Part shown: positions 3,761 to 47,821 of the stretch, piece by piece | Layout: each line of letters begins with the position of its first letter | How positions within the stretch are numbered: position 1 is the first letter of the stretch | Assembly: GCF_005844325.1 (NCBI RefSeq) | Contig: NZ_SPFY01000003.1 | Location: 1-64,000 of the forward strand | DNA length: 64,000 nucleotides | Direction: 5' to 3' | Origin: Collinsella aerofaciens | GTDB taxonomy: Bacteria > Actinomycetota > Coriobacteriia > Coriobacteriales > Coriobacteriaceae | Notes under the pieces: generated by a model | What the model saw: only the letters and a program-made list of their open reading frames with translations | Told to the model about the DNA's origin: nothing | The model's database searches: none | Made by a program: the position numbers and the translations under genes

Positions 3761-6538
3761 ATGATTCTCAACGGACCGGGGATTAGCTACACCGAGCCCG
3801 ATATCGGTGCGGAGTTTGTGCCGCCGCTGCCGGAGCATCCGCGCGAGGCCATCGTCAAACTGTGCGAGCACTGCACTAACCGCCTGCTGCATCGCGACGA
3901 GCTGCTGGGCTACGAGTACTGGTCGTTTGCCGAGGCCGCAACTGACGAGCAGGCCGAGGTACTCTGCAAGATGAAGATGCGTCGTCCCTACACGCTGCCC
4001 GAGATGGTCAAGCTCACCGGCATGCCCGAGGCCCAGATCGAGAAGATGCTCGACGATATGAGCTACACGGGCCTGCTCGAGTACAACTGGGAAAATCCCG
4101 AGCGCGCCAAGCAATGGGTGCTGCCCATGCTGGTGCCGGGTTCCGCCGAGTTCCTCAACATGCGCGTGAGCCAGCTCGAGGAGCACCCGGTCTACGCCAA
4201 GTTCTTTGAACAGGCATCCAAGGGCCCGCTGTCCAAGGCCACACCGATGGTGCCGCCCGGAGGCGCCGGTATCGGCATGCACGTCATTCCGGTCGAGAAG
4301 GCCATTGACGCCGCGAGCACGTCGGTGCCTATTGAGCATATTGAGCACTGGCTCGACAAATACGAGGGTAAGTATGCCGCTAGCACCTGCAGCTGCCGCG
4401 CGAGCCGTCGCGTGATGGGTGAGGGCTGCGCCGACGACCCGGCCGATTGGTGCATCGCCGTGGGCGATATGGCCGACTACGTGGTCGAGACCGATCGTGG
4501 CCATTACGTGACCCGCGACGAGGTCTACGACATCCTGCGCCAGGCCGAGGACAACGGCTTTGTGCACCAGATCACCAACATCGACGGCGAGAACAAGATC
4601 TTCGCCATCTGCAACTGCAACGTCAACGTGTGCTACGCCCTGCGCACCTCGCAGCTGTTCAACACGCCCAACCTGTCGCGCTCGGCCTATGTCGCCAAGG
4701 TCGAGAAGGACAAGTGCGTTGCCTGCGGTCGCTGCGTTGAGGTGTGCCCGGCCGGCGCCGCCAAGCTCGGCCAGAAGCTCTGCAGCAAAAAGGCCGGCGG
4801 ACAGGTGCCCGAGTATCCGCGCCAGGAGCTGCCCGACGCCACCAAATGGGATCACACCAAGTGGTCGCCCAACTACCGCAACGACAACCGTATCGAGACG
4901 CATGAGTCCGGCACCGCTCCCTGCAAGACGGCCTGCCCCGCGCACGTTGCCGTTCAGGGCTATTTGAAGCTCGCGGCTCAGGGTCGCTATGACGAGGCCC
5001 TAGCACTCATTAAGCGCGAGAACCCGCTGCCCGCTATCTGCGGCCGTGTGTGCAACCGCCGCTGTGAGGATGCCCGCACCCGCGGCCGTGTGGATGCCGC
5101 CGTGGCTATCGACGAGGTCAAGAAGTTCATCGCCCAGCGCGATCTGGATGCCGCGACCCGCTACGTCCCGCCCGTGGTTACGCCGACGCGCGCTGGCGGC
5201 TTTGATCAGAAGATCGCCATCATCGGTGCCGGTCCGGCCGGCCTGTCCTGCGCCTTCTATCTGGCCGAGAAGGGCTACAAGCCCGTCGTGTTCGAGAAGA
5301 ACGAGCGCCCGGGTGGCATGCTCACCTATGGCATTCCCAGCTTTAAGCTGCAGAAGGATGTTATCGAGGCCGAGGTCGAGATCATTCGCCTGATGGGTGC
5401 CGAGTTCCGCTATGGCGTGGAGGTCGGTCGCGACGTGACGCTCGACGAGCTGCGCGAGCAGGGCTTTAAGGCCTTCTACGTTGCTATTGGCTGCCAGGGC
5501 GGCCGCCTTGCCGGTATTCCGGGCGAGGATGCCGTGGACGTGACCGTGGCCGTCGACTTTTTGCGCGAGGTCAACAGTGGCAAGATCGACGCGTTGCCCG
5601 GCCGCACCATTGTGGTGGGCGGCGGCAACGTGGCTATCGATGTCGCGCGCAACGCCTGCCGTCTGGGTTCCGAGCACGTTGAGATGTTCTGCCTGGAGAG
5701 CGAGGCCCAGATGCCCGCCAGCGAGGAGGAACGTCGCGAGGCCGTTGAGGACGGCGCTCACATCAGCTGCGGCTGGGGCCCCAAGGAGATTCACCTGGAC
5801 GAGGCCGGTCGTGTATGCGGTATCACCTTCAAGCGCTGCACGCGTGTCTTTGACGACGAGGGCCGTTTTGCGCCCGAGTACGACGAGAACGATCTGCGCC
5901 GTGTCGATGCCGACCGTGTCGTCATGTCGATTGGCCAGTCCATTGTGTGGGGCGACCTGCTGGCTGGCTCCAAGGTGGAGCTCGGCCGCGGCCAGGGTGC
6001 CCTTGCCGATCCCCAGACTTACCAGACCGCCGAACCCGACATCTTTGTGGGCGGCGACGTCTACACCGGCCCCAGCTTTGCCATCGACGCTATCGCCGCC
6101 GGTCACGAGGCCGCGGTGTCCATCCATCGCTTTGTGCAGCCGGGCTCCACGCTCACCATCGGCCGCAACCAGCGCCGCTACACCGCGCTCGACCGCGACG
6201 ATGTCGTGATCGAGAGCTACGACAACGCGAGCCGCGAGGTTGCGCATGTGGACCGCGAACGCGAGAAGGCTGCACCGTTTAGCGAGTATGTTGAGACCTT
6301 TACCGAGGAGCAGGTGCGCGCCGAGACCGCCCGCTGCCTGGGCTGCGGCGCCTCGATCGTCGACCCCAACAAGTGCATCGGCTGCGGCCTGTGCACCACC
6401 AAGTGCGCGTTTGACGCTATCCATCTGTATCGCGACCGCCCCGAGTGCTCCACGATGGTCAAATACGAGCAAAAGCTCCCAAGCCTGGGCAAGTATGCTC
6501 TAAAGCGTGCGATTAAGATCAAATTCGGGAAGAAATAA
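3761..6538 (+). CDS. Fe-S/FAD NAD(P)H oxidoreductase, glutamate-synthase-beta-like, with ferredoxin domains
   Basis: The product has 925 residues; GAAGGG precedes the start. Domains in order: residues 1-200 unknown, including a winged-helix-like stretch (LPEMVKLTGMPEAQIEKML); a Cys-rich segment (CSCRASRR, CNCNVNVC) at about 210-300; a [4Fe-4S] ferredoxin motif (CVACGRCVEVCP) near 325; a DPYD domain-II-like Cys module (CKTACPAH, CGRVCNRRCE) near 385-450; an FAD-binding motif (GAGPAGLSC) near 490; an NAD(P)H-binding motif (GGGNVAIDVAR) near 625; and a last ferredoxin motif (CIGCGLCTTKC) near 870. The layout is that of the small subunit of glutamate synthase and related electron-transfer enzymes, which pass electrons between NAD(P)H and Fe-S partners. 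The natural partner is not visible. It is likely controlled by the divergent TetR protein. Confidence 0.85.
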   Translation: MILNGPGISYTEPDIGAEFVPPLPEHPREAIVKLCEHCTNRLLHRDELLGYEYWSFAEAATDEQAEVLCKMKMRRPYTLPEMVKLTGMPEAQIEKMLDDMSYTGLLEYNWENPERAKQWVLPMLVPGSAEFLNMRVSQLEEHPVYAKFFEQASKGPLSKATPMVPPGGAGIGMHVIPVEKAIDAASTSVPIEHIEHWLDKYEGKYAASTCSCRASRRVMGEGCADDPADWCIAVGDMADYVVETDRGHYVTRDEVYDILRQAEDNGFVHQITNIDGENKIFAICNCNVNVCYALRTSQLFNTPNLSRSAYVAKVEKDKCVACGRCVEVCPAGAAKLGQKLCSKKAGGQVPEYPRQELPDATKWDHTKWSPNYRNDNRIETHESGTAPCKTACPAHVAVQGYLKLAAQGRYDEALALIKRENPLPAICGRVCNRRCEDARTRGRVDAAVAIDEVKKFIAQRDLDAATRYVPPVVTPTRAGGFDQKIAIIGAGPAGLSCAFYLAEKGYKPVVFEKNERPGGMLTYGIPSFKLQKDVIEAEVEIIRLMGAEFRYGVEVGRDVTLDELREQGFKAFYVAIGCQGGRLAGIPGEDAVDVTVAVDFLREVNSGKIDALPGRTIVVGGGNVAIDVARNACRLGSEHVEMFCLESEAQMPASEEERREAVEDGAHISCGWGPKEIHLDEAGRVCGITFKRCTRVFDDEGRFAPEYDENDLRRVDADRVVMSIGQSIVWGDLLAGSKVELGRGQGALADPQTYQTAEPDIFVGGDVYTGPSFAIDAIAAGHEAAVSIHRFVQPGSTLTIGRNQRRYTALDRDDVVIESYDNASREVAHVDREREKAAPFSEYVETFTEEQVRAETARCLGCGASIVDPNKCIGCGLCTTKCAFDAIHLYRDRPECSTMVKYEQKLPSLGKYALKRAIKIKFGKK

Positions 6539-7056: not shown

Positions 7057-7069
7057 GATCCTCTATAAG

Positions 7070-7140
7070 TTGCGGTGAAATAGTTCCTAAAACCAGCCTT
7101 CTGGCTCTTAAACAAGAACTATTCCACCGCAATTTTTTTT
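7070..7140 (+). terminator. Long nested terminator hairpin after hypA
   Basis: Arms 7070-7086 and 7116-7132 pair over 17 bp with one mismatch, followed by eight T residues. Inside, AGCC-TTCT-GGCT forms a second small hairpin. The stem is much longer than a normal terminator needs. Its first 14 bases recur at 64-77. Confidence 0.85.
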
Positions 7141-10346: not shown

Positions 10347-10745
10347 ATGGCGCAATCTCAGAACAGCACGGTCGATCTGGCAACGCCGGCAACCTGCCTG
10401 ATGGGGCTTACCAGCCACGGTAACGTGATGGTGGGCAATAAGGCGTTCGAGTATTACAACGAGCGCAATCCCGAGGATTATATTCAAATCCCGTGGGACG
10501 AGGTCGACTATATTGCCGCCGAGGTTTTACGCGGCACCAAGAAGATCACGCGTTTTGCCATCTTCACCAAGGACAACGGTCACTTTACGTTTTCGACGCG
10601 CGACGACAAAGAGACGTTGCGCGCGGTCCGCAAGTACGTCGACGAGGATAAGCTTGTGCGTTCGCCCGACTTTATCGATGTGACGGCCAAGGGCGCCAAG
10701 AGCATCCCCTCCGTTATCAAAAACCTCTTCCACAAAGGCAACTAG
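10347..10745 (+). CDS. manO: DUF956 (ManO-type) protein linked to the mannose PTS
   Basis: The product has 132 residues. ATG 10347 is chosen because GGAGGGCGAG lies upstream and the family begins near here (NSTVDLATPATCLMG). The body, with KAFEYYNERNPEDYIQIPW, ITRFAIFTKDNGHFTFSTRD and a Lys-rich end, matches DUF956, a small cytoplasmic family that follows manXYZ in Firmicutes and is thought to modulate the transporter. A promoter-like TACACT and the operon terminator lie just upstream, so it may be expressed both by read-through and on its own. Confidence 0.85.
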   Translation: MAQSQNSTVDLATPATCLMGLTSHGNVMVGNKAFEYYNERNPEDYIQIPWDEVDYIAAEVLRGTKKITRFAIFTKDNGHFTFSTRDDKETLRAVRKYVDEDKLVRSPDFIDVTAKGAKSIPSVIKNLFHKGN

Positions 10746-10768
10746 TCATTAAAGAGCGCCCCCCAAGT

Positions 10769-10966
10769 GGGACGCAGTTTCCCATGGGGCTCGATCGGGA
10801 AAGTGCATCCCAGTTCGAGCGCCGATTCCGGGATGTAGTTTCCGGAACGGGGTCGTTTGGGAAACTGTGTCCCGTTTCGAGCCGAAATTCTGGGACACAG
10901 TTTCCAGCGAGGTCCCATTGGGAAAGTTTGACCCAGAATTTGCCTGGATAGTGGGACACACTTTCC
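10769..10966. repeat. Array of seven alternately oriented 14-mers, about 61-bp period
   Basis: Seven copies of a 14-mer close to GGGACACAGTTTCC occur with strictly alternating orientation. Forward copies start at 10769, 10830, 10892 and 10953; reverse copies at 10798, 10860 and 10921. Successive starts differ by 29, 32, 30, 32, 29 and 32 bp, so same-orientation copies recur every 61-62 bp. The spacers are related too (TTCGAGC after the second and fourth copies), so this is a diverged tandem repeat with internal symmetry. It fills the gap between the DUF956 gene and tRNA-Arg. No credible gene lies here. Confidence 0.85.
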
Positions 10967-11047
10967 GGAGGGCTGTTCCATCGCAACTTCGAAGAGTGGC
11001 TATACGCTGTATTACAACGGCGTAAATCTGCTACACTAGTACAACAT

Positions 11048-11123
11048 GCCTCCGTAGCTCAGGGGATAGAGCACCGCTCTCCTAAAGCGGGTGTCGACGG
11101 TTCGAATCCGCCCGGGGGCACCA
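11048..11123 (+). tRNA. tRNA-Arg (anticodon CCU), integration target
   Basis: The acceptor stem GCCTCCG pairs with CGGGGGC, the anticodon stem CCGCT with AGCGG around loop CTCCTAA (anticodon CCT), and the T arm GACGG-TTCGAAT-CCGCC is complete. CCA is encoded. It reads AGG codons. TACACT at 11032-11037 is a plausible -10 box. The 3' half of the gene is the left attachment core of the integrated element, and the element's copy keeps the tRNA intact. Confidence 0.97.
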
Positions 11124-11128
11124 GAAGA
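11079..11128. other. attL core (50 bp) in tRNA-Arg
   Basis: These 50 bases, from the anticodon loop to just past the CCA, are repeated exactly at 22136-22185. Identity breaks on both sides (CT versus AC before, A versus T after). This marks the core of site-specific integration. Confidence 0.92.
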
Positions 11129-11132
11129 AATT

Positions 11133-11163
11133 GCAGGTCAGACGGTATAAAACGTCTGGCCTG
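11133..11163 (+). terminator. Hairpin downstream of tRNA-Arg
   Basis: AGGTCAGACG and CGTCTGGCCT pair (one G-T) around a short AT-rich loop, followed by GTCTTCTTG. It probably ends the tRNA transcript. It lies inside the element, so the element supplies it to the tRNA gene. Confidence 0.6.
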
Positions 11164-11195
11164 TCTTCTTGTATAAGGGTCTTATTAGCGGCATT

Positions 11196-11216
11196 TGGGT
11201 AGAAATTGGGTAGAAA
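11196..11216 (+). promoter_or_regulatory. Left arm-type integrase sites (two direct repeats)
   Basis: TGGGTAGAAA occurs at 11196-11205 and 11207-11216, an 11-bp step, about 70 bases inside attL. The same pair with the same step occurs at 22009-22029 inside attR. Paired direct repeats inside both ends are typical arm sites for the N-terminal domain of tyrosine integrases. Confidence 0.6.
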
Positions 11217-11484
11217 GATTTTTTGTGGAGGTCTAAGCCCAATATTCGGTTTCCAACCTTTTCCACAGCTTACGGGCTTATAGAAGCCCTCCGGCTATGG
11301 AAAGCGTTGAAAACCTAGGTCGATGTTGTCGTGAGCGGGCGAGTTTCCAACAGTCCCCGGCGTCTCCGGGTTTTACTGGGGACCCTCCGACACCGGGGAC
11401 CGTTGAAAACTCGCCCCTCTATCCGCAAGGTTGCCCTTACCCCTTAAAATGGTCCGCAAGAGACAACGACGCAGGAGGTCCGGT
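11217..11484 (+). other. Structured leader upstream of the R-M gene
   Basis: There is no gene here. One nested hairpin spans about 11258-11305 (TTTCCA...TGGAAA, with GGGCTT-ATA-GAAGCCC inside). A second has 28-bp arms, 11337-11364 and 11389-11416, with three mismatches. The 9-mer GTTGRAAAC occurs four times: inverted at 11249-11257 and 11343-11351, direct at 11306-11314 and 11402-11410. These could be iterons, a control site for the R-M gene or a transfer origin. AGGAGG at 11473-11478 is the ribosome site of the next gene. Confidence 0.6.
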
Positions 11485-14316
11485 ATGCCTGCCAGCAAGA
11501 AAGAGGCAAAGGAGTTCGTAAAGCGGTGGAAGAAGCGCCTCAGCGCCATCCCCGCGGGCTCCAACAATGAGCAGCAGGACACGCAGAAGTTTTGGGTCGA
11601 CTTGCTCATCAATGTCCTGGGTATCCCGTCCAACACCATAGACAGCTTCGTCGACTTTGAGCGCAAGGTGAGAGGCCGACGCATCGACGTGTTCGTCTCC
11701 GACCACAACTTCCTCTGCGAGCAGAAGTCGTGGGGCATCGACCTCGACAAGCCCGAGCCTAGGAACGGGGGCATGGAGACGCCGCTCCAGCAGGCCATGT
11801 GGTACGCGCGGCACCTGCCGTACTCCGAGCGCCCGCGCTGGGTGATGACGTGCAACTTCGGGACCTTCCGCCTTTACGACCTCGACAACGAGAGGCCCGA
11901 GGACACCGTGCAGGAGTTCTCCCTCGAAGAGCTCCCGGACAGTCTGTACCTGCTCTCATTCCTGACATCCAACGAGACGAGCCGCCTGCACAAGGAACAG
12001 CAGCTTTCAATCGAGGCTGGGGCTTACGTCTCCAGGCTCTATGATGCTCTCGCCAAGCAGTACCATCACATCGAGGAGAAGGACGAGCGGGCCCAGGAGG
12101 AGCAGCGCTCGCTCAACGTTCTCATCACCCGAATCATCTTCTTACTTTACGCCGAGGACGCCGATCTCCTGCAATCGCATCAGGCGTTCGGCAGGTACTG
12201 CGAGGGAGACCCCGCGAAGCTCCGTCGCAAATTGGTCGATCTGTTCGAGACCATCGATACTCCCTTGGATCAGCGGGACGAGTACATGGACGAGGACCTT
12301 GCGGCCTTCCCCTACGTGAACGGTGGGCTGTTCGCCGACTCCTCCATCATCGTCCCGCAGATGACCCCGGAAATCCTTGAGGCCATCACCGACGCCTCCC
12401 AGGACTTCGACTGGCGCGAGATCTCGGGCGTCATCTTCGGCGGCGTGTTCGAGGGGACTCTGAATCCCGAGACGCGCCATGCCGGGGGTATGCACTACAC
12501 GAGCGTTGAGAACATCGAGCGCTGCCTGAAGCCGCTGTTCCTCGACGAGTTGTGGGACGAGCTGCACGAGGCCGAGGGTGAGAGGACGGCGGCGAAGCGC
12601 AAACAGGCCCTGGCGAGGCTGCACGACAAGGTTGCCTCCATTACCATCGGCGACCCGGCGTGCGGCTCGGGCAACTTCCTCACCGAGGCATACCGGCAGC
12701 TGCGCACCATCGAGAATCGAATCATCGAGGACGAGCTCAGCGAGGAGACCGGCAACGCGGGACAGACGTCCCTCGTCGTTGCGCAAGACAGTCCCGTCCG
12801 CGTCTCCCTGGGCCAGCTGTACGGCATCGAGATAAACGACTTCGCCGTTTCGGTCGCCAAGACCGCCCTGTGGATCACCGAGGAGCAGATGCTTCGTAAG
12901 ACGCAGGAGATATACGTCGACTATGACTTCGACTTCCTGCCGCTCAGGAGCCTCAGCAACCTCCATGAGGGCAACGCTCTCAAGATCGATTGGTCCGAGG
13001 TGTTCCCCGACGACCTCACCTATCTCGTGGGCAATCCTCCCTTCCTCGGGGCTCGTAACCAGTCCAAGGAGCAGAAATCTGAACTGCTTGAGGTCTTCGA
13101 CGGAGCGAAAAACGCGGGCAACATCGACTACTGCGGGGCCTGGTACATGAAGGCCGCGAGGTTCACGCAGGGGAAGCGCACGCGCTGCGCCCTGGTCTCG
13201 ACGAACTCCATCTGCCAGGGTGAGCAGGTCGCCAACCTCTGGAAACCCCTGCACGACCTGGGTATCCACATCGACTTTGCGCACAACACGTTCAGGTGGG
13301 ACAACGAGGCGGCAGATAAGGCGCATGTCTTTTGCGTCATCGTCGGGTTCTCCCGCGAAGCGGGGAACAAGACGCTCTTCTACCACGCGACCCCGGACAG
13401 CGACGAAGAACAGGTTCCCATGGCTCGAATCAACGCGTATCTGAAAGACGCCCCTGATGTATTTATCTATAGCCGCAACAAGCCTATTTGTGATGTTCCG
13501 GAAATGGGTATCGGAAATAAACCTATTGATGGAGGCTTCTACCTATTTACTGATGAGGAGAAAGACGATTTCCTGAAGAAAGAGCCCAAAGCCGAAGCCT
13601 TCTTTCACCCATGGCTTGGCTCAAAAGAGTTCATTCATGGCTATCACCGCTGGTGTCTATGGCTTGGGGAGGCAACTTTCTCAGATTTAAAGCAGCTTCC
13701 TGAGTGCAGAAAGAGAATAGAGCAGGTTCGTGAATACAGGCTTGCAAGTAAAAGCGCTGGAACTCGGAAAATTGCAGATAAGCCGACAAGGTTTCATGTT
13801 GAGAACATGCCTGAGGGAAGTTCCATCATCATCCCTGAGGTCTCTTCAAGCAGAAGAAAACGTGTTCCAATGGGCTTTGTTGGGCCAGAGATATTTTGTA
13901 GTAACAAGGTGAGATTGATTCCTAATGCCTCTCTCTATCACTACGGCATCCTGCAATCCCAGTTCCATAATGCATGGGTTAGGGTCGTAACTGGAAGGTT
14001 GAAGAACGATTACCAGTACTCGGCCAATATTGATTACAACAACTTCGTCTGGCCCGAGCCCAGTGAAGAGCAAAGGAACGAGGTCGAACGCTGCGCCCAA
14101 GCCGTGCTCGATGCCCGAGACGTCCAGGAGGGTGCGACGCTTGCGGACATGTATGATCCCAAGAATGAGACGTTCTTCCCCGAGCTGATGGCCGCGCATA
14201 AGGCGCTTGACGCTGCTGTTGAGGCTGCCTATGGCGTCGACTTCGGCGGGGACGAGGAGAAGATCGTCGCCCATCTCTTCAACCTCTACGCCGAGAAAGT
14301 CGGTGAAAGTAAATGA
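11485..14316 (+). CDS. MmeI-like type IIL restriction-modification enzyme
   Basis: The product has 943 residues, close to MmeI (919). ATG 11485 has AGGAGG six bases upstream. Residues 1-190 form the nuclease domain with Asp68, Glu79 and Lys81 (IDVF...CEQKS), the spacing of the PD-ExK site in MmeI. A helical linker leads to the gamma-class N6-adenine methyltransferase: motif I DPACGSGNF at about 390 and motif IV NPPF at 517. A target-recognition domain lies at about 650-850, followed by a helical C-terminus. Such enzymes cut about 20 bases from their site and methylate one strand, so a single protein protects and restricts. The DNA for residues 650-850 is much more AT-rich than the rest, a sign of target-domain exchange. 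The last four bases overlap the next gene. Confidence 0.88.
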   Translation: MPASKKEAKEFVKRWKKRLSAIPAGSNNEQQDTQKFWVDLLINVLGIPSNTIDSFVDFERKVRGRRIDVFVSDHNFLCEQKSWGIDLDKPEPRNGGMETPLQQAMWYARHLPYSERPRWVMTCNFGTFRLYDLDNERPEDTVQEFSLEELPDSLYLLSFLTSNETSRLHKEQQLSIEAGAYVSRLYDALAKQYHHIEEKDERAQEEQRSLNVLITRIIFLLYAEDADLLQSHQAFGRYCEGDPAKLRRKLVDLFETIDTPLDQRDEYMDEDLAAFPYVNGGLFADSSIIVPQMTPEILEAITDASQDFDWREISGVIFGGVFEGTLNPETRHAGGMHYTSVENIERCLKPLFLDELWDELHEAEGERTAAKRKQALARLHDKVASITIGDPACGSGNFLTEAYRQLRTIENRIIEDELSEETGNAGQTSLVVAQDSPVRVSLGQLYGIEINDFAVSVAKTALWITEEQMLRKTQEIYVDYDFDFLPLRSLSNLHEGNALKIDWSEVFPDDLTYLVGNPPFLGARNQSKEQKSELLEVFDGAKNAGNIDYCGAWYMKAARFTQGKRTRCALVSTNSICQGEQVANLWKPLHDLGIHIDFAHNTFRWDNEAADKAHVFCVIVGFSREAGNKTLFYHATPDSDEEQVPMARINAYLKDAPDVFIYSRNKPICDVPEMGIGNKPIDGGFYLFTDEEKDDFLKKEPKAEAFFHPWLGSKEFIHGYHRWCLWLGEATFSDLKQLPECRKRIEQVREYRLASKSAGTRKIADKPTRFHVENMPEGSSIIIPEVSSSRRKRVPMGFVGPEIFCSNKVRLIPNASLYHYGILQSQFHNAWVRVVTGRLKNDYQYSANIDYNNFVWPEPSEEQRNEVERCAQAVLDARDVQEGATLADMYDPKNETFFPELMAAHKALDAAVEAAYGVDFGGDEEKIVAHLFNLYAEKVGESK

Positions 14317-14765
14317 TTCACCCCACGCGTTTTGCCCTTCCAGAGGAGGACTATCTGACCCTTCTCGGGGGGGCGGTTTATGTATTCAACTCGAATGTCT
14401 CCTTCTTCGTTGAGAACCTTCTGCACGCTGGGGCTCCCGACTGGTACGAGCTTGCCGACATGATGACGGGGCAGCTCAAGGATGAAGGAAGGAAGTGGCT
14501 TGTGAATGAAAAGGACAAAAGAGTCCTGGAACTGCTTTGCGAGCTCGGAAACGAGAGGAACAGAATTATCCACAGCTTTCCGGTAACGCATGATGGGCGA
14601 CAGGAGCTTCGAACGAAGACTAAGGCCAAGGACGAAGAGCAACCAAACTATCAGTACCAGATTGACCGTGAACTGCTCCACTCCTTCATCGACAGAAACC
14701 AAGAACTGAGCGACGAACTGTACGAGTGCAGGGACAGAAACGTCGCTATGGCTAAGCTCTCCTAG
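14313..14765 (+). CDS. Small HEPN-like protein coupled to the R-M gene
   Basis: The product has 150 residues. Its ATG overlaps the TGA of the R-M gene (ATGA), so translation is coupled. The protein looks all-helical. It contains ERNRIIHSF, with Arg82-Asn83-x3-His87: the R[N/D/H]xxxH signature of HEPN domains, which are mostly RNA-cutting toxins or defence nucleases. The motif sits between two helices (VLELLCELGNE and a following charged helix), as in HEPN folds. The C-terminal half is very polar (KTKAKDEEQPNYQYQ) and then helical. I do not recognise the family further. It could be an accessory control or back-up toxin of the R-M system, or an unrelated helical protein with a chance motif. Confidence 0.6.
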   Translation: MIHPTRFALPEEDYLTLLGGAVYVFNSNVSFFVENLLHAGAPDWYELADMMTGQLKDEGRKWLVNEKDKRVLELLCELGNERNRIIHSFPVTHDGRQELRTKTKAKDEEQPNYQYQIDRELLHSFIDRNQELSDELYECRDRNVAMAKLS

Positions 14766-15216
14766 GGTCCTGTCAAGCGGCTTGTGATGCAGCAATCGGC
14801 CTTGCGGCCGATGGGTCCCGCTTATGGGCGGGACCCCCGCGACGCACGGCGTCGCTCTCGCTGCGGCTCCCTGGCAACGCTCCCCAGGGTCGCGTTTCGT
14901 CCGCCTCCGCTCACGCCGGCCCAGCCCGCCGAACGGCTGCGCTCGATGGCTTCCAGAAGTCGCCATCGCTCCGCCGTGGTCGCCGGGCTGGGCCTCTCGC
15001 GCCGGGTCGCCGAGCGCCGTCGTGCGACGCTTCCCAGGGTCGCGTCTCCTCGGCGTCGGTTCAACCGGCGCTCACCTGCCCGGGCTCGCGTTGCCTTGGG
15101 CAACCGGCTCGCTCCGTGCAGGCAAGATATGGATTCCGTTGCACGGAATCATCTTGCCCGCCTGCGGCGGGACGGCGAACCGCTCCGAGGTCGCTCTCAC
15201 CGAAGGGCAAAAGAAG
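14766..15216. other. GC-rich non-coding region rich in hairpins
   Basis: This is about 450 bases without a credible gene. Hairpins seen: 14795-14812 (ATCGGCC-TTGC-GGCCGAT); directly next to it 14813-14836 (GGGTCCCGC/GCGGGACCC), a likely end signal for the R-M operon; and 15121-15158 (GGCAAGAT and GATTCCG arms with a 3-base bulge and the loop TTGCA). AGGGTCGCGT occurs twice here and again at 63733-63742. Being between convergent operons and beside the relaxase gene, it could hold the transfer origin, but I see no known nic sequence. Confidence 0.5.
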
Positions 15217-15245
15217 GGGCCGGGACGCCTGTTGCGTCCCGGCCC
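15217..15245 (-). terminator. Terminator of the mobilization operon
   Basis: The perfect 12-bp arms GGGCCGGGACGC and GCGTCCCGGCCC surround a 5-base loop. On the minus strand CTTCTTTTGC follows. It lies six bases past the relaxase stop. Confidence 0.85.
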
Positions 15246-15251
15246 AAGTGC

Positions 15252-16190
15252 TTAGTCCCCGCGCCCGTTCTGGTTCTCGTGCGCCTTGCGCTCAAGTTCC
15301 CAGAACGCCCTCATCGCCGTCGCTATCCCGCGCAGCGTGAAGCGGACGACGAGGCCGGTCGAGCGGTCGACCGCGAAGCCGAGCCTGCCGCCGTTGACCT
15401 TCCGCACGGCCCCGAGGGTCTTCGAGAAGAATCGGTACTGGAGGCTCCCGCCCTTCGACCTCGCGAGCTCGATGCCGTCTCGCCTGAGCCGCCGGTCGAG
15501 CTCGGCCATGCGGTCGGGGCAGTCCCTCATTCGCCCGACCTCCTCGACGCGGCGGGCAACCGCCACGCGGACGCGGGCGTTCTCGGAGCGCTCGGCCTGC
15601 CCCTTGCGGGCCATCTCGCGTTCCTCCCTGCCCGGTTGTCTCGCGTGAACGCGCGAGTTGGCCTTGCCGCGTTCAAGCTGCCTGAGCCCATACTTCTCGT
15701 CCAAGGCGCGGACGGTCTTCACCCTCGCGGTTGCGGCCTTGCGTGCGGGACCCTCGTCGAGCCTTCGGCCGGTTTCCAGATCACTGCGGTTGATGCCGAG
15801 GTGCACGGCGTAGCGGTCGGTGGCGTCCGCGCGGCAGCGCTCGCGGTGCAGCACCATCACGACTTCCTGGTTGGGGTAGCGCTCGGCCACGTACTCCCTC
15901 GCATAGCGCATGCACAGCTCCGGCGTCATCTTCCCGCCGTTGAGGTCGCACTCGTCTGGGAGGAACCCGAGTATCTGGTGCTGCATGTAGGTACACTTGG
16001 CACCGGCCTTGCCGGGCATGTCGTGACCCATGGCTGCTCTCGTGTCTGCCATCTCCTGAAACCAGCGGCCTTCGTCGATGATGTTCTGCGTGCCGTGGGC
16101 AAGCGCCTTGTCGCGGTCCCATGAAAGGTAGTCCCTGAGACGGGAGAGGTGCCTTTCGCTGCAGACGCTCGTCTGCTTTATTGCCGTCAT
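15252..16190 (-). CDS. Relaxase/mobilization nuclease (MOBP-like)
   Basis: The product has 312 residues; a strong AGGAGG precedes the start. Family features: the HQILGFLPDE segment, then MTPELCMRYAREYVAERYPNQ, a histidine at 115 (VMVLH) and RYAVHLGINRSDLETG, the place of the relaxase metal-binding His cluster. The usual HxH reads HLG here, so the third His is missing or replaced. Tyrosines near residues 21 and 68 are candidates for the nicking residue. The C-terminal half is basic and helical. Relaxases nick the transfer origin and lead the strand into the recipient. It is the last gene of a leftward operon after the coupling protein, with nine bases between them. It is shorter than many relaxases but looks intact. 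Confidence 0.75.
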   Translation of the reverse strand: MTAIKQTSVCSERHLSRLRDYLSWDRDKALAHGTQNIIDEGRWFQEMADTRAAMGHDMPGKAGAKCTYMQHQILGFLPDECDLNGGKMTPELCMRYAREYVAERYPNQEVVMVLHRERCRADATDRYAVHLGINRSDLETGRRLDEGPARKAATARVKTVRALDEKYGLRQLERGKANSRVHARQPGREEREMARKGQAERSENARVRVAVARRVEEVGRMRDCPDRMAELDRRLRRDGIELARSKGGSLQYRFFSKTLGAVRKVNGGRLGFAVDRSTGLVVRFTLRGIATAMRAFWELERKAHENQNGRGD

Positions 16191-16199
16191 GGTCGCCTC

Positions 16200-18116
16200 C
16201 TAGTCGAGCGAGAGCCCGCTGAATTTGCTGCCACCTGCGTCCCCGGCCCTCTTCTCGGGCTCGGGCCACTCGGGGCACCAGACGGGGATCGCCTCGGCCA
16301 TCTTCTCGGTCGCCGAGGCGTCGAGCCCCGCCTGGTAGGCGCGGCGATTCCCTGCCTCGTGCTCGGGCGTCCCCAGGCCGAAGTGCTCCTTTGTGGGCGT
16401 GTTGGTGCAGTCGGTGACGGGGGAGCGGAAGACCCCTGCGCGGCACGCGGGCATCCCGTTGTCCGCATGCTTCACGACGATGACCCCGTCCCGGTCGGGT
16501 GCCATGTCGCGCCACTCCCAGGGATGTATCACGTCGTCGGCGCTCTCGCTGTAGGACGTCGAGGAGGATGTGCCCGACGCGGCCCTGCCGTTGCTCGTGC
16601 CTTGCGTGTGGCGCGTGGTCTTGCCGACGAGCTCGGTGAAGTACCGGCGGTCCTCCTCCTCAGCGAGCTTCATGGCGACTTTGACGCCGCAGTTCGCGAG
16701 AATTTTCCTGCGCCCGTCTCGCTCACCGTATTTATTAAGCTGGGATATATCTTGCGTTGCCCCCGTCCAGTAAATCTGGAACGACCTTCCAAGCGAAAGG
16801 AGGGCGGGCAGGCACTCGACGCGGGGAAGGTTGCCCCACTCGTCGCCGAGTATCTGCACGGGGCGGGGGAGCCTGCCGCCGTTGGAGTCGGCGGCGGCCT
16901 GGACGGACGCCCAGAGCTGCGAGAGGAATATCGCCGCTATGCAGTTGTAGGGCGAGCCCTCGTCGAGCACGTGGAGGAACACGGCGCTCTTGTTCTCAAG
17001 GATCGAACGCGGGTCGATGTCGGACCCGGACGTCATCCACGCGACCGGGGCTGACGAGAACGGGCGGAGCGCCACCTTGAGCGTCGAGAGGATGCTCCTG
17101 AGCTCGTTGCCGCCCGAGGAGACGAACTGCGAGGCCCTGTTCTTCGCGGGGTGCCCGCTCGGCAGGGCGCGGAAGACGGACTTCAACGGTTCGGCCGGGT
17201 CGTCGCCCTCGGCCTCGGTGCCACGGTCCAACACCTCGCAGACGGTCGCCAGATGCTTGGACTCCTCGGGGCACTCGTCGGACATGGAGACCAGCAGGAC
17301 GAGGGCGGACAGGAGCCCCCGCGCGGACGCGGTCCAGTGCGAGCCCTTGCCTTTCTCGTCGTCCTGTACCACGAGCTCAGCGATGGCGTCCGCCGCCTGC
17401 TCGGCCTCCTGGTTCCGGCCCTCGGCGTGGAGGTCGAGCACCTGCCTGAGCGGGTTGAACCTCTGGCCGCGATAGGGATGCTGCGTGTCGAGTAGGAGGA
17501 CGCGGTAGCCGCGACGGGCCAGCTCGTCGCCCGTGAGCTCTACGAGCTCGTTCTTCACGTCTGAGACGACGAGGGTCGCGGGTTCGGAGCCGTTTGAGCC
17601 GTCGCCGTAGCTGAGCAGGTCGATTGAGGGGAGGTAGAGGAAGCGTGACTTACCTGACCCAGTGGCCCCTGATACGAAAATCATCTTCTTCGGCTCGTAG
17701 AGATAACAGGGCTTACCGCGATATTTGGTGAAACCGTAGACGAACCCGCGCGACGATGGAATCGTCGAGCCGTCCCAGGTCACGGACCCCTTCACGACCT
17801 CGCGACCTGTCTTGACGTGGGCGTCGCCGAGCACGCCGCCGTCCTCGGCCCGCGCGTTGAGAGCACTTGAGTAGGCGATGAGGGCGCAGGTGCAGAGTGC
17901 AAGGAGGAAGACGAACAAGACCCCGAGGGGATAGGCGGCGAACCCGCCCGAGAGCCACCAGCCGAGGACGATCCCCGCGTCGAACGTTGCGGGGATTGCC
18001 GATGTGTCGAGCCCGTACCCGGCGACGAACGCGTCGATGGGGGCAGCGAGCACGGGGCATGCGAGGACTGCTAGGAAAATGGATGATACGAGTGCTGTGA
18101 GCAGTTTCGTTTTCAT
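16200..18116 (-). CDS. VirD4/TraG-type conjugative coupling protein
   Basis: The product has 638 residues. ATG 18116 follows AGGGAG and gives a normal N-terminus; longer readings add unrelated sequence. Hydrophobic helices lie at about 6-25 and 60-82, the first resembling a signal peptide (ending VLAAP). Walker A GATGSGKS is at 140-147 and the Walker B region (ILGDEWGNLPRVE) near 400. The Gln-containing GATQDISQLN segment typical of TraG/VirD4 follows. These hexameric ATPases link the relaxase-DNA complex to a type IV secretion channel. The element encodes no other channel parts, so this protein would adapt it to a helper's channel. Ser-rich and charged residues fill the C-terminus. Confidence 0.9.
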   Translation of the reverse strand: MKTKLLTALVSSIFLAVLACPVLAAPIDAFVAGYGLDTSAIPATFDAGIVLGWWLSGGFAAYPLGVLFVFLLALCTCALIAYSSALNARAEDGGVLGDAHVKTGREVVKGSVTWDGSTIPSSRGFVYGFTKYRGKPCYLYEPKKMIFVSGATGSGKSRFLYLPSIDLLSYGDGSNGSEPATLVVSDVKNELVELTGDELARRGYRVLLLDTQHPYRGQRFNPLRQVLDLHAEGRNQEAEQAADAIAELVVQDDEKGKGSHWTASARGLLSALVLLVSMSDECPEESKHLATVCEVLDRGTEAEGDDPAEPLKSVFRALPSGHPAKNRASQFVSSGGNELRSILSTLKVALRPFSSAPVAWMTSGSDIDPRSILENKSAVFLHVLDEGSPYNCIAAIFLSQLWASVQAAADSNGGRLPRPVQILGDEWGNLPRVECLPALLSLGRSFQIYWTGATQDISQLNKYGERDGRRKILANCGVKVAMKLAEEEDRRYFTELVGKTTRHTQGTSNGRAASGTSSSTSYSESADDVIHPWEWRDMAPDRDGVIVVKHADNGMPACRAGVFRSPVTDCTNTPTKEHFGLGTPEHEAGNRRAYQAGLDASATEKMAEAIPVWCPEWPEPEKRAGDAGGSKFSGLSLD

Positions 18117-18118
18117 GG

Positions 18119-18463
18119 TTACTCCCTGGCTTTCGATAGGAGGGCTGAAAGCTGCGACGCCGTGTTCGATACCAGGCGGACGGCGTCTGCAAGTTGCTGG
18201 GATGTCTGCGCGTCTGATCCGTATGCGTTGAGGGCGTGACAAGCCTGGTTTAGGTTCCCGCCCTCCTTTTTCAGTTGATAAAGAATCTGCCGCAGCGTCG
18301 CCTCGTCGGCGACCCTGGCGGGCTTCTCCCCGATGCGAAGTGCGGACTCGCGCATAAGCGCCGATGGAGTCATGCCGAAAGCGGAGGAGCGCGCCATGAT
18401 GGCGGCACGCTCCTCCTCAGTCATACGGACGTTGATGTGCGCGGTTTTTGCGTTGCCGCGCAT
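18119..18463 (-). CDS. mobC: MobC-like relaxosome accessory protein
   Basis: The product has 114 residues; AGGAGGG precedes the start. The N-terminal half (INVRMTEEERAAIMARSSAFG and SALMRESAL) is a ribbon-helix-helix-type DNA-binding domain. The second half has GGNLNQACHALNAYG, the MobC hallmark with the NLNQ motif. MobC binds next to the nick site and opens the strands for the relaxase. It lies between the DnaB-like gene and the coupling protein with three-base gaps, so all are one operon. Confidence 0.88.
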   Translation of the reverse strand: MRGNAKTAHINVRMTEEERAAIMARSSAFGMTPSALMRESALRIGEKPARVADEATLRQILYQLKKEGGNLNQACHALNAYGSDAQTSQQLADAVRLVSNTASQLSALLSKARE

Positions 18464-18466
18464 GGC

Positions 18467-19351
18467 TTAACCCTCCTGATCGTAGAAGGTGGCATGAGGT
18501 GCGTCGAAGATGAGCTTGGTGCTCCCAAGCGTGCCATAACGCGCCTTAAGGACCCGAACAAGCAGGGGACGAACGTCAAGCTCTGAGTTGTATTTCCGCT
18601 CCTTCTTGTCCTTGCCATCGACCTGCAGGAAGAGGGCGTTGTCGGAGCCATAGTCGATACCCTGCGAGCCCGCGAAGACGTTGAGCTCGGTGTTCGCGTC
18701 GTTGTACTTGTCTCGTGCGACGCTGCTGATCAGGAAGACGGGGACGTCATACGTCCGGGCGATGTTTCCGAGCGCCTGCACACAAGCGGTGATGACAACG
18801 CGCTCTTCAGCGCGGACGTCGAAGGACGTTGCGGCGATGAGCTGTAGATAATCTACGAAGAGAGCGGGATGCTGGCCGCGAACGTGGATGCAGTCACCGA
18901 TGCAACGGCAGAGGTCTTCCATGGACGTCTGACCGTCCATGATGCATGAGTTGGGTGCTACGCTCTCGGCGTAGGTGGCGCAAGCGCGCTCAAATGCCTC
19001 TTTCTTCTCGGGGATAGCCCCGGTCGCTTCGGAAAGGCTGAAGTCTCCGTTGCCGAGGCGCGTGATGCCCTTCTGAGCAATGCGATACGCGGGGAGTTCC
19101 GCGGAGTAGAAGACGGTGGGCACGCCTTGGGAGGCAAGGTCGTCAGAGATAACCTTGAGGAGCGTCGTTTTGCCGGCAGCGGGTGCCGCTCCGACTATGG
19201 TCAGGATTCCGGGTACGACGCCTCCGATGAGCTTGTCGAGAGAGGGGAGGCTGCGTATATGAGCCATGGGCTTACGCCCGTTCATTTCCTCGATATAGGT
19301 CTTGAGCTGATCGGCTTCGACGTTGAATGAGCTATTGGCTACAGGCTGCAC
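18467..19351 (-). CDS. DnaB-like RecA-fold ATPase of the element
   Basis: The product has 294 residues, starting at a GTG with GGAGGT upstream. Walker A reads GAAPAAGKTT at about 54-63, and FVDYLQLI near 160-170 is the DnaB-type Walker B. The protein corresponds to the C-terminal motor domain of replicative helicase DnaB without its N-terminal primase-binding domain. Such short DnaB/RepA-like ATPases serve replication of mobile elements after excision. Its first 13 bases overlap the end of the excisionase-like gene, so the two are translationally linked. Confidence 0.85.
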   Translation of the reverse strand: MQPVANSSFNVEADQLKTYIEEMNGRKPMAHIRSLPSLDKLIGGVVPGILTIVGAAPAAGKTTLLKVISDDLASQGVPTVFYSAELPAYRIAQKGITRLGNGDFSLSEATGAIPEKKEAFERACATYAESVAPNSCIMDGQTSMEDLCRCIGDCIHVRGQHPALFVDYLQLIAATSFDVRAEERVVITACVQALGNIARTYDVPVFLISSVARDKYNDANTELNVFAGSQGIDYGSDNALFLQVDGKDKKERKYNSELDVRPLLVRVLKARYGTLGSTKLIFDAPHATFYDQEG

Positions 19352-19584
19352 GGATCCGACACCTCCAACTCGTGAAGGTACTCAAAAAAGCTGGACTCGA
19401 TGACGAAGAGGCGGCTATGAAGCTTGAGGCAGCGACCGCTCTCTTTCATGAGCGATGCGGCGGCAACCTCCCCAAGCCCGGTCAGCTCACGAATCTCGGT
19501 GACGCCGAGCAGACGCTCGCGTCCCAGAACGACGCGAGGAGGAGCGGGTGCGATACCCGCTTTGGGAATAGCGGAATCTACCAT
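19339..19584 (-). CDS. Excisionase-like helix-turn-helix protein
   Basis: The product has 81 residues. ATG 19584 has AAAGGAGAT upstream; the 51 codons before it lack features. The core LLGVTEIRELTGLGEVAAASLMKESG followed by a short beta wing (LHSRLFVIESSFFEYL) is a winged helix like excisionases and other MerR-type small proteins. As the first gene of the leftward transfer operon it may steer excision or control the operon. Confidence 0.7.
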   Translation of the reverse strand: MVDSAIPKAGIAPAPPRVVLGRERLLGVTEIRELTGLGEVAAASLMKESGRCLKLHSRLFVIESSFFEYLHELEVSDPCSL

Positions 19585-19764
19585 GGTAGAATCTCCTTTG
19601 GTCTGCTCACTCCTCCCCACCTCAGTTTGGCGACTAGAGGGGAGGGGTGGGCGGCTTTTTGTTTCTATGGCCTTCTTTGGGCACCTCCATTCCGGCATTC
19701 GCTTATCTGTGCAATTCGATGATACTGCTTCTGGCAATCGAGGCGCTGAAGATTCAGAAAAATT

Positions 19765-19814
19765 TCCGAAGATTTTCGGATAAGCACTTTTACCTCGAAA
19801 AACAGGGTTATACT
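19765..19814 (+). promoter_or_regulatory. Promoter of the cargo gene with upstream inverted repeat
   Basis: GGGTTATACT contains a good -10 box, TATACT (19809-19814), 28 bases before the start. Upstream, TCCGAA-GATT-TTCGGA is a short perfect inverted repeat and a possible operator shared with the divergent transfer operon. The 19585-19841 gap holds no gene. Confidence 0.45.
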
Positions 19815-19841
19815 TGCAATGAAAACCGATTGGAGGATGAA

Positions 19842-20588
19842 ATGGAACGCTCCAGGAAACCGAAAAAACGAAAGTTTGGGACGACCATCCTTGAACAGAC
19901 CGATGACAACATCAGCATGTTCAAGGAACAACATCCGCAAGAGTTTAAGACTCCGGGGGAAGTGGTCGACCTTCTCGCGAGCCTCTGTCTCCGCGTCAAC
20001 AAGGGCGCAGCTACGGAACTGAGCGCTTTTTGTGCGCAACGGGTCAAGTCTATTCAGGATGAGCTTAGTGGATATGGCGATGCTGAGTCCCTGTCGCTCG
20101 CTGCCGACGACTTAAACGACAAGCTCTCTTATTACAAGGCTCTTCGTAATCACATGTTGCGATTTGTTCCGCAAGACAGCCTTGTTGATAAGGGGCCGTC
20201 AATGAAACGCGTGGACCTGCGAGGTGGCTCGTATCTCGTTGTCCCCGACGATTGGCCGGTGGTCAATGAGTCGAATGCTGCGTCATGCGACTATGCTTTC
20301 GTCCTTGAAGTGCGGAACGCAAGCGACGCAATTCCGCACTATGTTTATCTTTCCTCAAAGGAAGCCTGTCCTACGGATGAGGTGCTTGATGCGATAGCTG
20401 ATAAATGGCCGGGGATTCGTGATGTCCAGAGTTCTCAGGTCGAGCCGATCTATGACAAGGACGGTGCGATTCTGAATACCGACGAATGGGCGAAGGCACC
20501 TATAATCGGCGTCTTCCCCATTCGTGACGCCTCATCGTTTTCCTGGGAGGATAAGGCTCCATATGGGGCGATGGTCTATCGTCATTAG
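19842..20588 (+). CDS. Unknown cargo protein of the element
   Basis: The product has 248 residues. ATG 19842 has TTGGAGG upstream; the reading frame is open further upstream, but that part looks non-coding. The N-terminus is basic (ERSRKPKKRKFG). Residues 30-110 are helical, and residues 120-248 look alpha/beta with many aromatic residues (VDLRGGSYLVVPDDWPVV, IPHYVYLSSKEACP). No known motif is seen. It is the only rightward gene in this part of the element and has its own promoter, which fits an accessory function such as defence or entry exclusion (inference). Confidence 0.75.
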   Translation: MERSRKPKKRKFGTTILEQTDDNISMFKEQHPQEFKTPGEVVDLLASLCLRVNKGAATELSAFCAQRVKSIQDELSGYGDAESLSLAADDLNDKLSYYKALRNHMLRFVPQDSLVDKGPSMKRVDLRGGSYLVVPDDWPVVNESNAASCDYAFVLEVRNASDAIPHYVYLSSKEACPTDEVLDAIADKWPGIRDVQSSQVEPIYDKDGAILNTDEWAKAPIIGVFPIRDASSFSWEDKAPYGAMVYRH

Positions 20589-20639
20589 CCCATCTATGTT
20601 CAAAGCAAGAGAAGGGCCGGGTATATCTCGGCCCTTCCT

Positions 20640-21920
20640 TTATGAACTGCTCTTTTGGGAAATGAGCTCGCCGAAGGCATCTGCTGCCTTACGGTCGTTT
20701 GCCTCGATGGCGTGGGAGTAGATGGAAAGCGTCGTGCTCGGAGACGCGTGGCCAAGTCTTGCCTGGACGGTCTTCACGTCTGCGCCTTCTCCGATAAGGA
20801 GCGTCGCCTGCGTGTGCCGCAGGGCGTGGGGGACGAGCCCACTGTATCCCGTGCCCCTCACGTGCTCTTTGCCGTTTCGCTGGAATCTTCTGGTGATATT
20901 GCTGTAGCTCCCAAAGCCGTTATCGACGCAGAAGTCGCGGAACCATCGGTCGAAGTTGTGGCCGTCTACGTTGACGACTGTGGCGTATATGCCATCCTCG
21001 GTCGTGACGACCTTTATGCCGTTGACGATAGGCGTCTTGTCGTCCTGATCGAGAGTGTATCGGTTGAGTTGCGCCCGCTGTTCCAGCTTCCATTTGCCGA
21101 GATAGCGGGCCAGGGAGTCGTTGATTGCTATGGTGCGTCGGCTCATCTTCGATTTTGGTGCTCGGAGAGTCTTGTCATTGGTGAACTGATTCGACACGCT
21201 CAACGTGCGCCGCCCAAGGTCGATGTCGCCCCAAGTCAAGCCGAGCATCTCGCCGCGTCGGAGACCACATTGGAGCAGGAGCATGGTGCCTGTTGCCTTG
21301 GCCGACAGTGGTTCATCCATGAGGCAAGACAGAAATCGTGAAGCCTCGTCTGCCGTAAGCGGAGCTCTTTCCCTGTAAGTTGGTTTGGGAAGCTTGATCG
21401 GCGTGCATGGGTTACGAAGGATGAGCTCGTTGTCTACGGCGTCTTGGAGAATCTGTCGCAGCTTGACATGTGTCCCGTGTAACTCGGCTTCGGACATTCC
21501 TCTTTTGCGGGCGTCTGCGTAGATGCGCCGTATATCGTCAGGGTGGAGGTCGGCAAGTCGGATATGGCCGAACATCTCTTGAATATGGCTAATGTAGTTG
21601 CCCTCACGGGCGTAGGCGAGCGGTGACTTGAAGCTCTTTATCCTTAGGCTGTGGAAGTCCTCGGCGTACTTTACGACGGTGAGGTTTCCGCTGTCACGGA
21701 CGATACCGGAGTTCAACTCCTCCTTGTATTCTTCCAGGGCTTTGCGGAGCATTGCCTGTTGTGTGCGTCTACTCACACCTTCGCAGTGCAGCGTTCTCTT
21801 GGATGAGTAGGCGTATTTGCCGGTCTTGGGGTCCTTGCCGAGGTTGAAGCGGTATTGGAACACCCCTTCTTTAACTTGATATACGCTGCCGTTTCCGACA
21901 ACTCTTGGTCTGGTGCTCAT
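20640..21920 (-). CDS. int: Tyrosine recombinase/integrase
   Basis: The product has 426 residues; AAGGAA precedes the start. The order is an N-terminal arm-binding domain (1-65), a SAM-like core-binding domain (70-165) and a catalytic domain. Active residues visible: Arg in LLQCGLRRGEMLGL, His-x-x-Arg in HALRHTQAT, His in LGHASPST and Tyr in LSIYSHA, so it should be active. It recombines the 50-bp core in tRNA-Arg. The gene sits at the right end and reads away from attR, the usual place. Its start lies 12 bases from a perfect 24-bp-arm hairpin that may control it. Confidence 0.96.
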   Translation of the reverse strand: MSTRPRVVGNGSVYQVKEGVFQYRFNLGKDPKTGKYAYSSKRTLHCEGVSRRTQQAMLRKALEEYKEELNSGIVRDSGNLTVVKYAEDFHSLRIKSFKSPLAYAREGNYISHIQEMFGHIRLADLHPDDIRRIYADARKRGMSEAELHGTHVKLRQILQDAVDNELILRNPCTPIKLPKPTYRERAPLTADEASRFLSCLMDEPLSAKATGTMLLLQCGLRRGEMLGLTWGDIDLGRRTLSVSNQFTNDKTLRAPKSKMSRRTIAINDSLARYLGKWKLEQRAQLNRYTLDQDDKTPIVNGIKVVTTEDGIYATVVNVDGHNFDRWFRDFCVDNGFGSYSNITRRFQRNGKEHVRGTGYSGLVPHALRHTQATLLIGEGADVKTVQARLGHASPSTTLSIYSHAIEANDRKAADAFGELISQKSSS

Positions 21921-21931
21921 GGTGGGATTCC

Positions 21932-21985
21932 TTGGGATTAGGCTAGGGGCAAGCCTTTAAGGGCTTGCCCCTAGCCTAATCCCAA
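21932..21985. repeat. Perfect 24-bp inverted repeat beside the integrase start
   Basis: Arms 21932-21955 and 21962-21985 are exact complements with the loop TTTAAG. It lies between the integrase start and the arm sites. Right after it, ATTCTACCCAG (21987-21997) and CTGGGTAGAAT (22008-22018) form another perfect 11-bp inverted repeat. It would either fold in the integrase leader or bind a regulator. Confidence 0.85.
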
Positions 21986-22008
21986 AATTCTACCCAGGCA
22001 AGAGTATC

Positions 22009-22029
22009 TGGGTAGAATTAGGGTAGAAA
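22009..22029 (+). promoter_or_regulatory. Right arm-type integrase sites
   Basis: TGGGTAGAA (22009-22017) and AGGGTAGAA (from 22020) repeat with an 11-bp step, matching the pair at 11196-11216 in sequence, step and strand. They lie 107 bases inside attR. Confidence 0.6.
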
Positions 22030-22135
22030 ATTTTTGAAGCCTTTATCTCGCGATTCTTGAAACATGCCGTTTTACATGCGGCTATATAAAATTGTATAAA
22101 ATTATAAAACACCAGCTCAGATAGAAATACAAGAC

Positions 22136-22185
22136 CTCCTAAAGCGGGTGTCGACGGTTCGAATCCGCCCGGGGGCACCAGAAGA
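22136..22185. other. attR core (50 bp)
   Basis: An exact copy of 11079-11128, lacking the 5' half of the tRNA. It marks the right end of the element. Confidence 0.92.
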
Positions 22186-22579
22186 TTATGACGGCGTCGC
22201 GAGAGCGGCGCCGTTTCTGGTTTGTGGGGACCGCCGGCGGATTCGGACCGTCGACACCCGCGTCACCAATTTCCCCGCGGGGGGGGGAGTTTTCGAATCC
22301 GCCCGGGGGCACCAGAAGATTATGACGGCGTCGCGAGGGCGGCGCCGTTTCTGGTTTGTGGGGACCGCCGGCGGATTCGGACCGTCGACACCCGCGTCAC
22401 CAATTTCCCCGCGGGGGGGGGAGTTTTCGAATCCGCCCGGGGGCACCAGAAGATTATGACGGCGTCGCGAGGGCGGCGCCGTTTCTGGTTTGTGGGGACC
22501 GCCGGCGGATTCGGACCGTCGACACCCGCGTCACCAATTTCCCCGCGGGGGGAGTTTTCGAATCCGCCCGGGGGCACCA
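22181..22579. repeat. Triplicated 134/134/131-bp repeat built from tRNA-Arg pieces
   Basis: Three head-to-tail units start at 22181, 22315 and 22449. They are nearly identical; the third is shorter because a G tract has six instead of nine residues. Each unit ends with a direct copy of the last 25 bases of the tRNA region (TTCGAATCCGCCCGGGGGC onward). Such copies lie at 22158, 22292, 22426 and 22557. Each unit also holds an inverted copy of the T-arm region with one change (GCGGATTCGGACCGTCGAC). ACCAGAA and TTCTGGT plus GGCG and CGCC can pair inside each unit. No real gene lies here. Confidence 0.92.
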
Positions 22580-47731: not shown

Positions 47732-47743
47732 GCTATTCACCTA

Positions 47744-47821
47744 GTCATTGGGGACGTTCTTAAATGACTAGTCAAACAAGAGCGTCCCCAATGACCACTC
47801 ATTTAAGTCTGTCCCCAATGA
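47744..47821. repeat. GTCATTGGGGACG inverted repeat cluster
   Basis: GTCATTGGGGACG (47744-47756) and its exact complement (47783-47795) enclose a 26-base centre, and a third partial copy (GTCCCCAATGACTAGT) runs from 47811 into the stop of the next gene. ATGACTAGT and ATTTAAG/CTTAAAT also recur. It looks like a dispersed intergenic element. Only this copy is in the window. Confidence 0.7.

Follow-up and report, generated by a model that had tools for sequence, protein, structure and literature searches.

Alternating half-site arrays at gene 3' ends in the Collinsella aerofaciens complex: candidate platforms for a sequence-specific DNA-binding protein

Iteron and centromere-like arrays consist of short protein-binding sites that are repeated in phase. 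REP elements can block exonucleases or help Rho-dependent termination via hairpins, and they are the targets of some IS elements. For the gyrase-binding BIME-2 arrays, a local role against read-through or torsional stress has been proposed. BIMEs are composed of REPs that are regularly spaced and alternate in orientation, and BIME-2 is bound and cut by gyrase in E. coli (PMC2817692, PMC6379681). REPINs and GTAG-tagged REPs are short, dispersed and lineage-specific repeats (PMC3116915, PMC3733652).

The window, that is, the whole stretch of C. aerofaciens DNA analyzed here, is 64,000 nucleotides long. A first-pass annotation of its letters had reported seven copies of a 14-mer alternating in orientation at 10769-10966, and all seven copies, the alternation and the six steps between starts (29, 32, 30, 32, 29, and 32 bp) were found at these coordinates. 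The whole array has a 62-bp period and is assigned to neither strand; its seven half-sites, which are versions of GGGAYRCRSTTTCC, are GGGACGCAGTTTCC (10769-10782, +), GGGATGCACTTTCC (10798-10811, -), GGGATGTAGTTTCC (10830-10843, +), GGGACACAGTTTCC (10860-10873, -), GGGACACAGTTTCC again (10892-10905, +), GGGTCAAACTTTCC (10921-10934, -), and GGGACACACTTTCC (10953-10966, +). The array begins 23 bp after the stop codon of the DUF956 gene (10347-10745, + strand; Pfam PF06115), the last gene of a mannose-type PTS operon, and ends 81 bp before tRNA-Arg. Taken alone, the 14-mer was in mild excess in the window, with 10 matches at up to 3 mismatches versus 4.4 expected, a count reached by 1 of 100 shuffles; the ordered lattice, unlike the lone 14-mer, far exceeded chance. 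At the Rfam gathering score, the two tRNAs were the only hits in the window. The array alternates in orientation and its linkers are related, whereas a CRISPR array has direct repeats and unrelated spacers, and the earlier exclusion of CRISPR was thus upheld.

The half-site consensus was drawn from representatives clustered by array sequence and is best given in full as Y-GGGAYRCRSTTTCC-S (14-16 bp), within which GGG and TTTCC are near-invariant. A pyrimidine precedes the half-site in 86 of the 86 linkers counted, and the base that follows is mostly G or C. Steps were counted at 25 loci, defined as orthologous by flank similarity and represented by one array each. The step from a - to a + copy (GGGA to GGGA) was 32 bp in 83 of 85 neighbour steps across all loci, and the step from a + to a - copy, in which the TTTCC ends face each other, was 30 bp in 53 neighbour steps and 29 bp in 9. 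Rigid spacing is seen in the 18-bp linker that joins facing GGGA ends, and the TTTCC-to-TTTCC spacer is 16 or 15 bp. Given that the arrays mostly start with a - copy and finish with a + copy (or deviate by one end site), that 46-bp units are also present singly, and that one locus, in the between-strain comparison which the first-pass annotation had called for, has 4, 6, 8, 10, or 12 copies depending on the strain, the elementary unit is probably GGAAA..TCCC-N18-GGGA..TTTCC (46 bp), repeated with a 15-16 bp spacer. Most changes in copy number involve whole 62-bp units, each with two half-sites. In the window array, half-sites 2 and 3 form such a 46-bp unit (10798-10843, assigned to neither strand), and further units lie at 10860-10905 and 10921-10966. 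At the inner bases (half-site positions 5-9) of all arrays, the changes were almost only transitions and followed a Y-R-Y-R pattern (CGCG, TGCA, and CACA forms); these positions were slightly more divergent than the flanks (14% versus 11%), as if a CpG-like decay took place inside the site.

The array is a member of a family of about 25 loci, with roughly 10-15 arrays per genome and 3-17 half-sites in each. The paired pattern GGGAYNNNNTTTCC-N14-17-GGAAANNNNRTCCC had 4-27 matches per genome in 24 of 45 Collinsella genomes and none in the remaining 21, and a reversed-pattern control had no match. The 46-bp pattern was found in the same 24 Collinsella genomes and was absent from the 277 other genomes searched in the order. 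These 24 genomes were taken as the C. aerofaciens complex, judged by a DUF956 protein of at least 95% identity (at most 67% in other possessors) and by the names in a named collection. The genome-wide search thus revealed a dispersed family, restricted among the genomes searched to this complex. For a fuller half-site, YGGGAYRNRSTTTCCS, the window's genome gave 48 matches, nearly all of which lie within arrays; its control pattern was not found in that genome, nor was YGGGAYRNRSTTTCCS itself found in two Collinsella genomes from outside the complex. Outside Collinsella, the nine matches examined among the matches listed were isolated pairs without an array and were taken as chance. An origin from phages or plasmids was also rejected: no phage record matched, viral contigs gave one single pair, and the lone plasmid match was an 899,693-bp record labelled plasmid that bears housekeeping genes. 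No description of these repeats was found in the open-access literature, which does not prove that there is none.

Two further observations concern the surroundings of the arrays. One locus (L259; G000:C2:55000-65309) has three arrays within 4 kb, downstream of a xanthine dehydrogenase-type gene, which separate an unassigned 332-aa ORF and an ATPase_2/DUF234 gene; the same region has several arrays in other genomes. In at least 4 places (L278, at about 4400-5874; L284/L285; L286/L287; and L125), a Mutator/IS256-type insertion sequence (PF00872; ends GGTCGCGCGCGCAGACGTGG) lies in or beside arrays.

The arrays are located at gene 3' ends. In the annotated record NZ_OY725717.1, a distance of 8-123 bp separates each of the five arrays from a gene 3' end. 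Over the 25 loci, the median distance was 88 bp to gene 3' ends versus 235 bp to 5' ends, as measured with our own gene calls, which miss some genes. Convergent gaps made up 9 of the 21 classifiable array gaps versus 10 of 64 background gaps of at least 150 bp, the latter coming from parts of the window's genome and of the genomes of a few relatives and not drawn independently of the arrays. None of the arrays overlapped a called gene. Since the arrays adjoin gene 3' ends, their job would most likely be local.

Like BIME-2, the array has repeats that are regularly spaced, alternating, extragenic and tandemly amplified, with a copy number that varies between strains. Regular spacing and alternation are what defines a BIME (PMC2817692), and the arrays are extragenic and multicopy, although their 4-27 strict pairs per genome are below the usual >100 copies. 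Unlike the REP of a BIME, which is a palindromic unit of 20-40 bp, the 14-mer is at best a quasi-palindrome, with pairing between neighbouring copies only, and neither a GTAG nor a CGTC end tag is present in the half-site and linker consensus. The array also differs from BIME-2 in that no RAYT was adjacent in the 18 stretches tested, that the copies facing each other over the linker have no kept pairing, and that there are far fewer loci per genome, all in one species complex. Because no REP palindromes, GTAG tags or adjacent RAYT genes were found, we do not file the array as a BIME, although it may work like BIME-2. The arrays share with REPINs and GTAG-tagged REPs a dispersed, lineage-specific distribution of short repeats; unlike REPINs, however, their half-sites are untagged and number 3-17 per array instead of forming single doublets. 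With iteron and centromere-like arrays they have in common the in-phase order of short putative protein sites, but they occupy about 25 chromosomal loci at gene ends, alternate in orientation, and have no recognised partner gene next to them.

The interval between DUF956 and tRNA-Arg differs among members of the complex. Seven copies are present in six genomes. Other genomes have six copies, four, or five that an insertion sequence interrupts; in the remainder, a regular chain is lacking or one of two further palindromes, families B and C, is present instead. Many members of the complex do without the array at this locus, which makes it dispensable at any one gene. Family B is a dispersed palindrome, AGTTGCGGTGRAATAGTTCC-N28-GGAACTATTYCACCGCAACT, which is confined to the same 24 genomes and has 17-39 matches in each. 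One copy lies at window positions 7067-7135, 11 bp past an ORF end at 7056, and another occupies the window locus of G005-type genomes (L291). Family C is a GTAG...CTAC palindrome with 5-14 matches per genome, again in these 24 genomes only (window 47742-47798; L290, L223, L227); it shows compensatory change in whole blocks and looks like a RAYT-type REPIN. To the left of the window array, ACTAGTCATTAAAGAGCG (10741-10758, +) is possibly a remnant of the family-C palindrome, as judged by eye against the intact C at this locus in G002, G034, and G036. To its right, GTTCCATCGCAACTTCGAAG (10975-10994, +) is, by the same kind of comparison with the intact B at the locus in G004, G005, G006, G012, G022, and G035, possibly a remnant of the right arm of family B. 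Because the array flanks resemble such remnants, the window locus seems to have a mosaic history, with arrays and palindromes taking each other's place.

The first-pass annotation had linked the array to tRNA-Arg as the target of an integrating element. That the tRNA is an integration target was borne out by an att copy near 22138-22182. The link to the array was not: the tRNA stands between the array and the element, relatives with the same tRNA lack the array, and the other array loci are elsewhere, so that the association looks coincidental. Among the genes of the mobilisable element (window 11048-22579), between tRNA-Arg and the att copy, are those for a coupling protein, a MobA-type relaxase and MmeI-type restriction-modification. 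Beyond the att copy, att-like scars follow in steps of about 134 bp, at 22290, 22424, and 22555.

The divergence between orthologous arrays of equal copy number was 2.2% in the half-site core, compared with 14.0% at the inner five positions, 10.8% in the spacer, 10.6% in the linker and 11.2% in the flank, the pairs within a locus not being independent. Under simulated neutrality with the same caller, the core was 10.2% divergent, indicating that the low core value is not made by the calling rule. The core is under purifying selection. Copies drifting freely in spacing and sequence had been named beforehand as the finding that would speak against an ordered array; linkers and spacers do drift, but core and spacing do not. 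A neutral tandem repeat (decaying satellite or VNTR) agrees with the between-strain variation by mostly whole 62-bp units, yet all positions of its unit should drift alike. Since the core value is so far below both the neutral simulation and the roughly 11-14% seen elsewhere, the array is no decaying satellite, and the constrained core and spacing beside drifting linkers and spacers already contradict a neutral origin, which we consider highly improbable. Several observations favour a selfish interspersed repeat that has no host function and owes its spread to a transposase, for instance a RAYT: the arrays are dispersed and clade-specific, strains differ in the presence of an array at one locus, two further palindrome families have the same 24-genome range, and RAYT-type Y1 transposase genes occur in 39 of the 45 Collinsella genomes. 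However, purifying selection on the core between orthologous loci, after insertion, is not expected of dead copies. A RAYT was also rejected as the carrier, given that no array was present in any of the 18 stretches examined around RAYT-type genes, each 4-5 kb long, and that RAYTs are also present in array-free genomes; published RAYTs have their own repeats at their flanks in only about a third of cases. Selfish spread without function is thus unlikely in our view.

The first-pass annotation had considered either proteins bound on one DNA face or RNA folded into a row of hairpins. Hairpin function predicts that facing copies match at their variable inner positions. Across the 18-bp linker, their concordance was 0.544 versus 0.541 permuted, and 405 of 500 shuffles paired at least as well as the real arrays. 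Across the 16-bp spacer, a small significant excess was found (concordance 0.595 versus 0.530 permuted; 87.9% versus 86.2% paired; covariation score 0.162 versus 0.128; 1 of 500 shuffles). Opposite copies that are not adjacent in the same array showed no matching of variable positions. Family B, a long palindrome of the same genomes used as a yardstick, had a covariation score of 0.101 versus 0.045 shuffled, from 15 sequences only and owing much to two related rows. On the coding strand, an excess of G.U over A.C (120 versus 77) was gone against shuffles once composition was allowed for. The lack of covariation across the linker, its weakness across the spacer and the lack of a G.U preference indicate that the sequence itself, rather than pairing, is mainly what is conserved. 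The small spacer covariation could stem from weak pairing, from neighbouring proteins that touch each other, or from templated correction inside the quasi-palindrome. These results bear on an RNA-level element, in which the arrays would be transcribed as 3' UTRs and fold into successive hairpins, which would hinder exonucleases or assist termination by Rho. Computed single-strand folding far above shuffles on both strands (z -6.3 and -6.6), the adjoining stop codons and the weak spacer covariation are in its favour, and strong folding is the part of the hairpin claim that held. The linker without covariation and the missing G.U preference argue against it, as does the tolerance of single-position mismatches while GGG and TTTCC stay nearly invariant. 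In addition, the array has no strong intrinsic terminator (a G+C hairpin followed by a T-run); within it, one weak 7-pair match was found, on the - strand at the left end. We therefore regard the RNA-level element as rather unlikely, though less so than selfish spread. Because the linker-facing bases do not covary and the spacer-facing ones do so weakly, a protein lattice on one DNA face is better supported than a hairpin row, in line with the fixed steps of about three helical turns, the purifying selection on the core and the lack of a pairing constraint across the 18-bp linker.

On this evidence, we lean towards the array being one of about 25 chromosomal platforms, in the C. aerofaciens complex, for a putative sequence-specific DNA-binding protein. 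The candidate protein, probably dimeric, would read each 14-16 bp half-site Y-GGGAYRCRSTTTCC-S as double-stranded DNA. Since starts 32 and 30 (29) bp apart correspond to about three helical turns, bound protomers would be aligned on one DNA face, with neighbours in contact. The elementary unit of such an assembly is likely the rigid 46-bp pair, which recurs every 62 bp; gains and losses mostly comprise two half-sites. Cooperative assembly would place a protein patch just past the gene end, and, between one transcription unit and the next, this patch would most likely curb read-through or torsional stress, be it as a nucleoprotein roadblock, as an insulator or as an anchor for supercoils, with a predicted effect on transcription or on supercoiling. 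A more specific version, in which a lineage-specific architectural protein polymerises on one DNA face over the in-phase alternating half-sites and sets up a roadblock or insulator as a boundary at gene 3' ends, the array being distinct from REP/BIME, Rho and intrinsic termination, is a tentative proposal that we hold to be possible but doubtful.

Copy-number variation in 62-bp steps is a marker for strain typing. If a dedicated protein binds the lattices, the C. aerofaciens complex, a group of common human gut bacteria, has a defined and easily assayed set of about 10-15 elements per genome, the register and unit of which have already been set by evolution. In that case, the role of alternating arrays such as BIMEs, be it in topology, termination, mRNA stability or selfish spread, could be tested in bacteria whose arrays allow constraint on sequence to be distinguished from constraint on hairpins.
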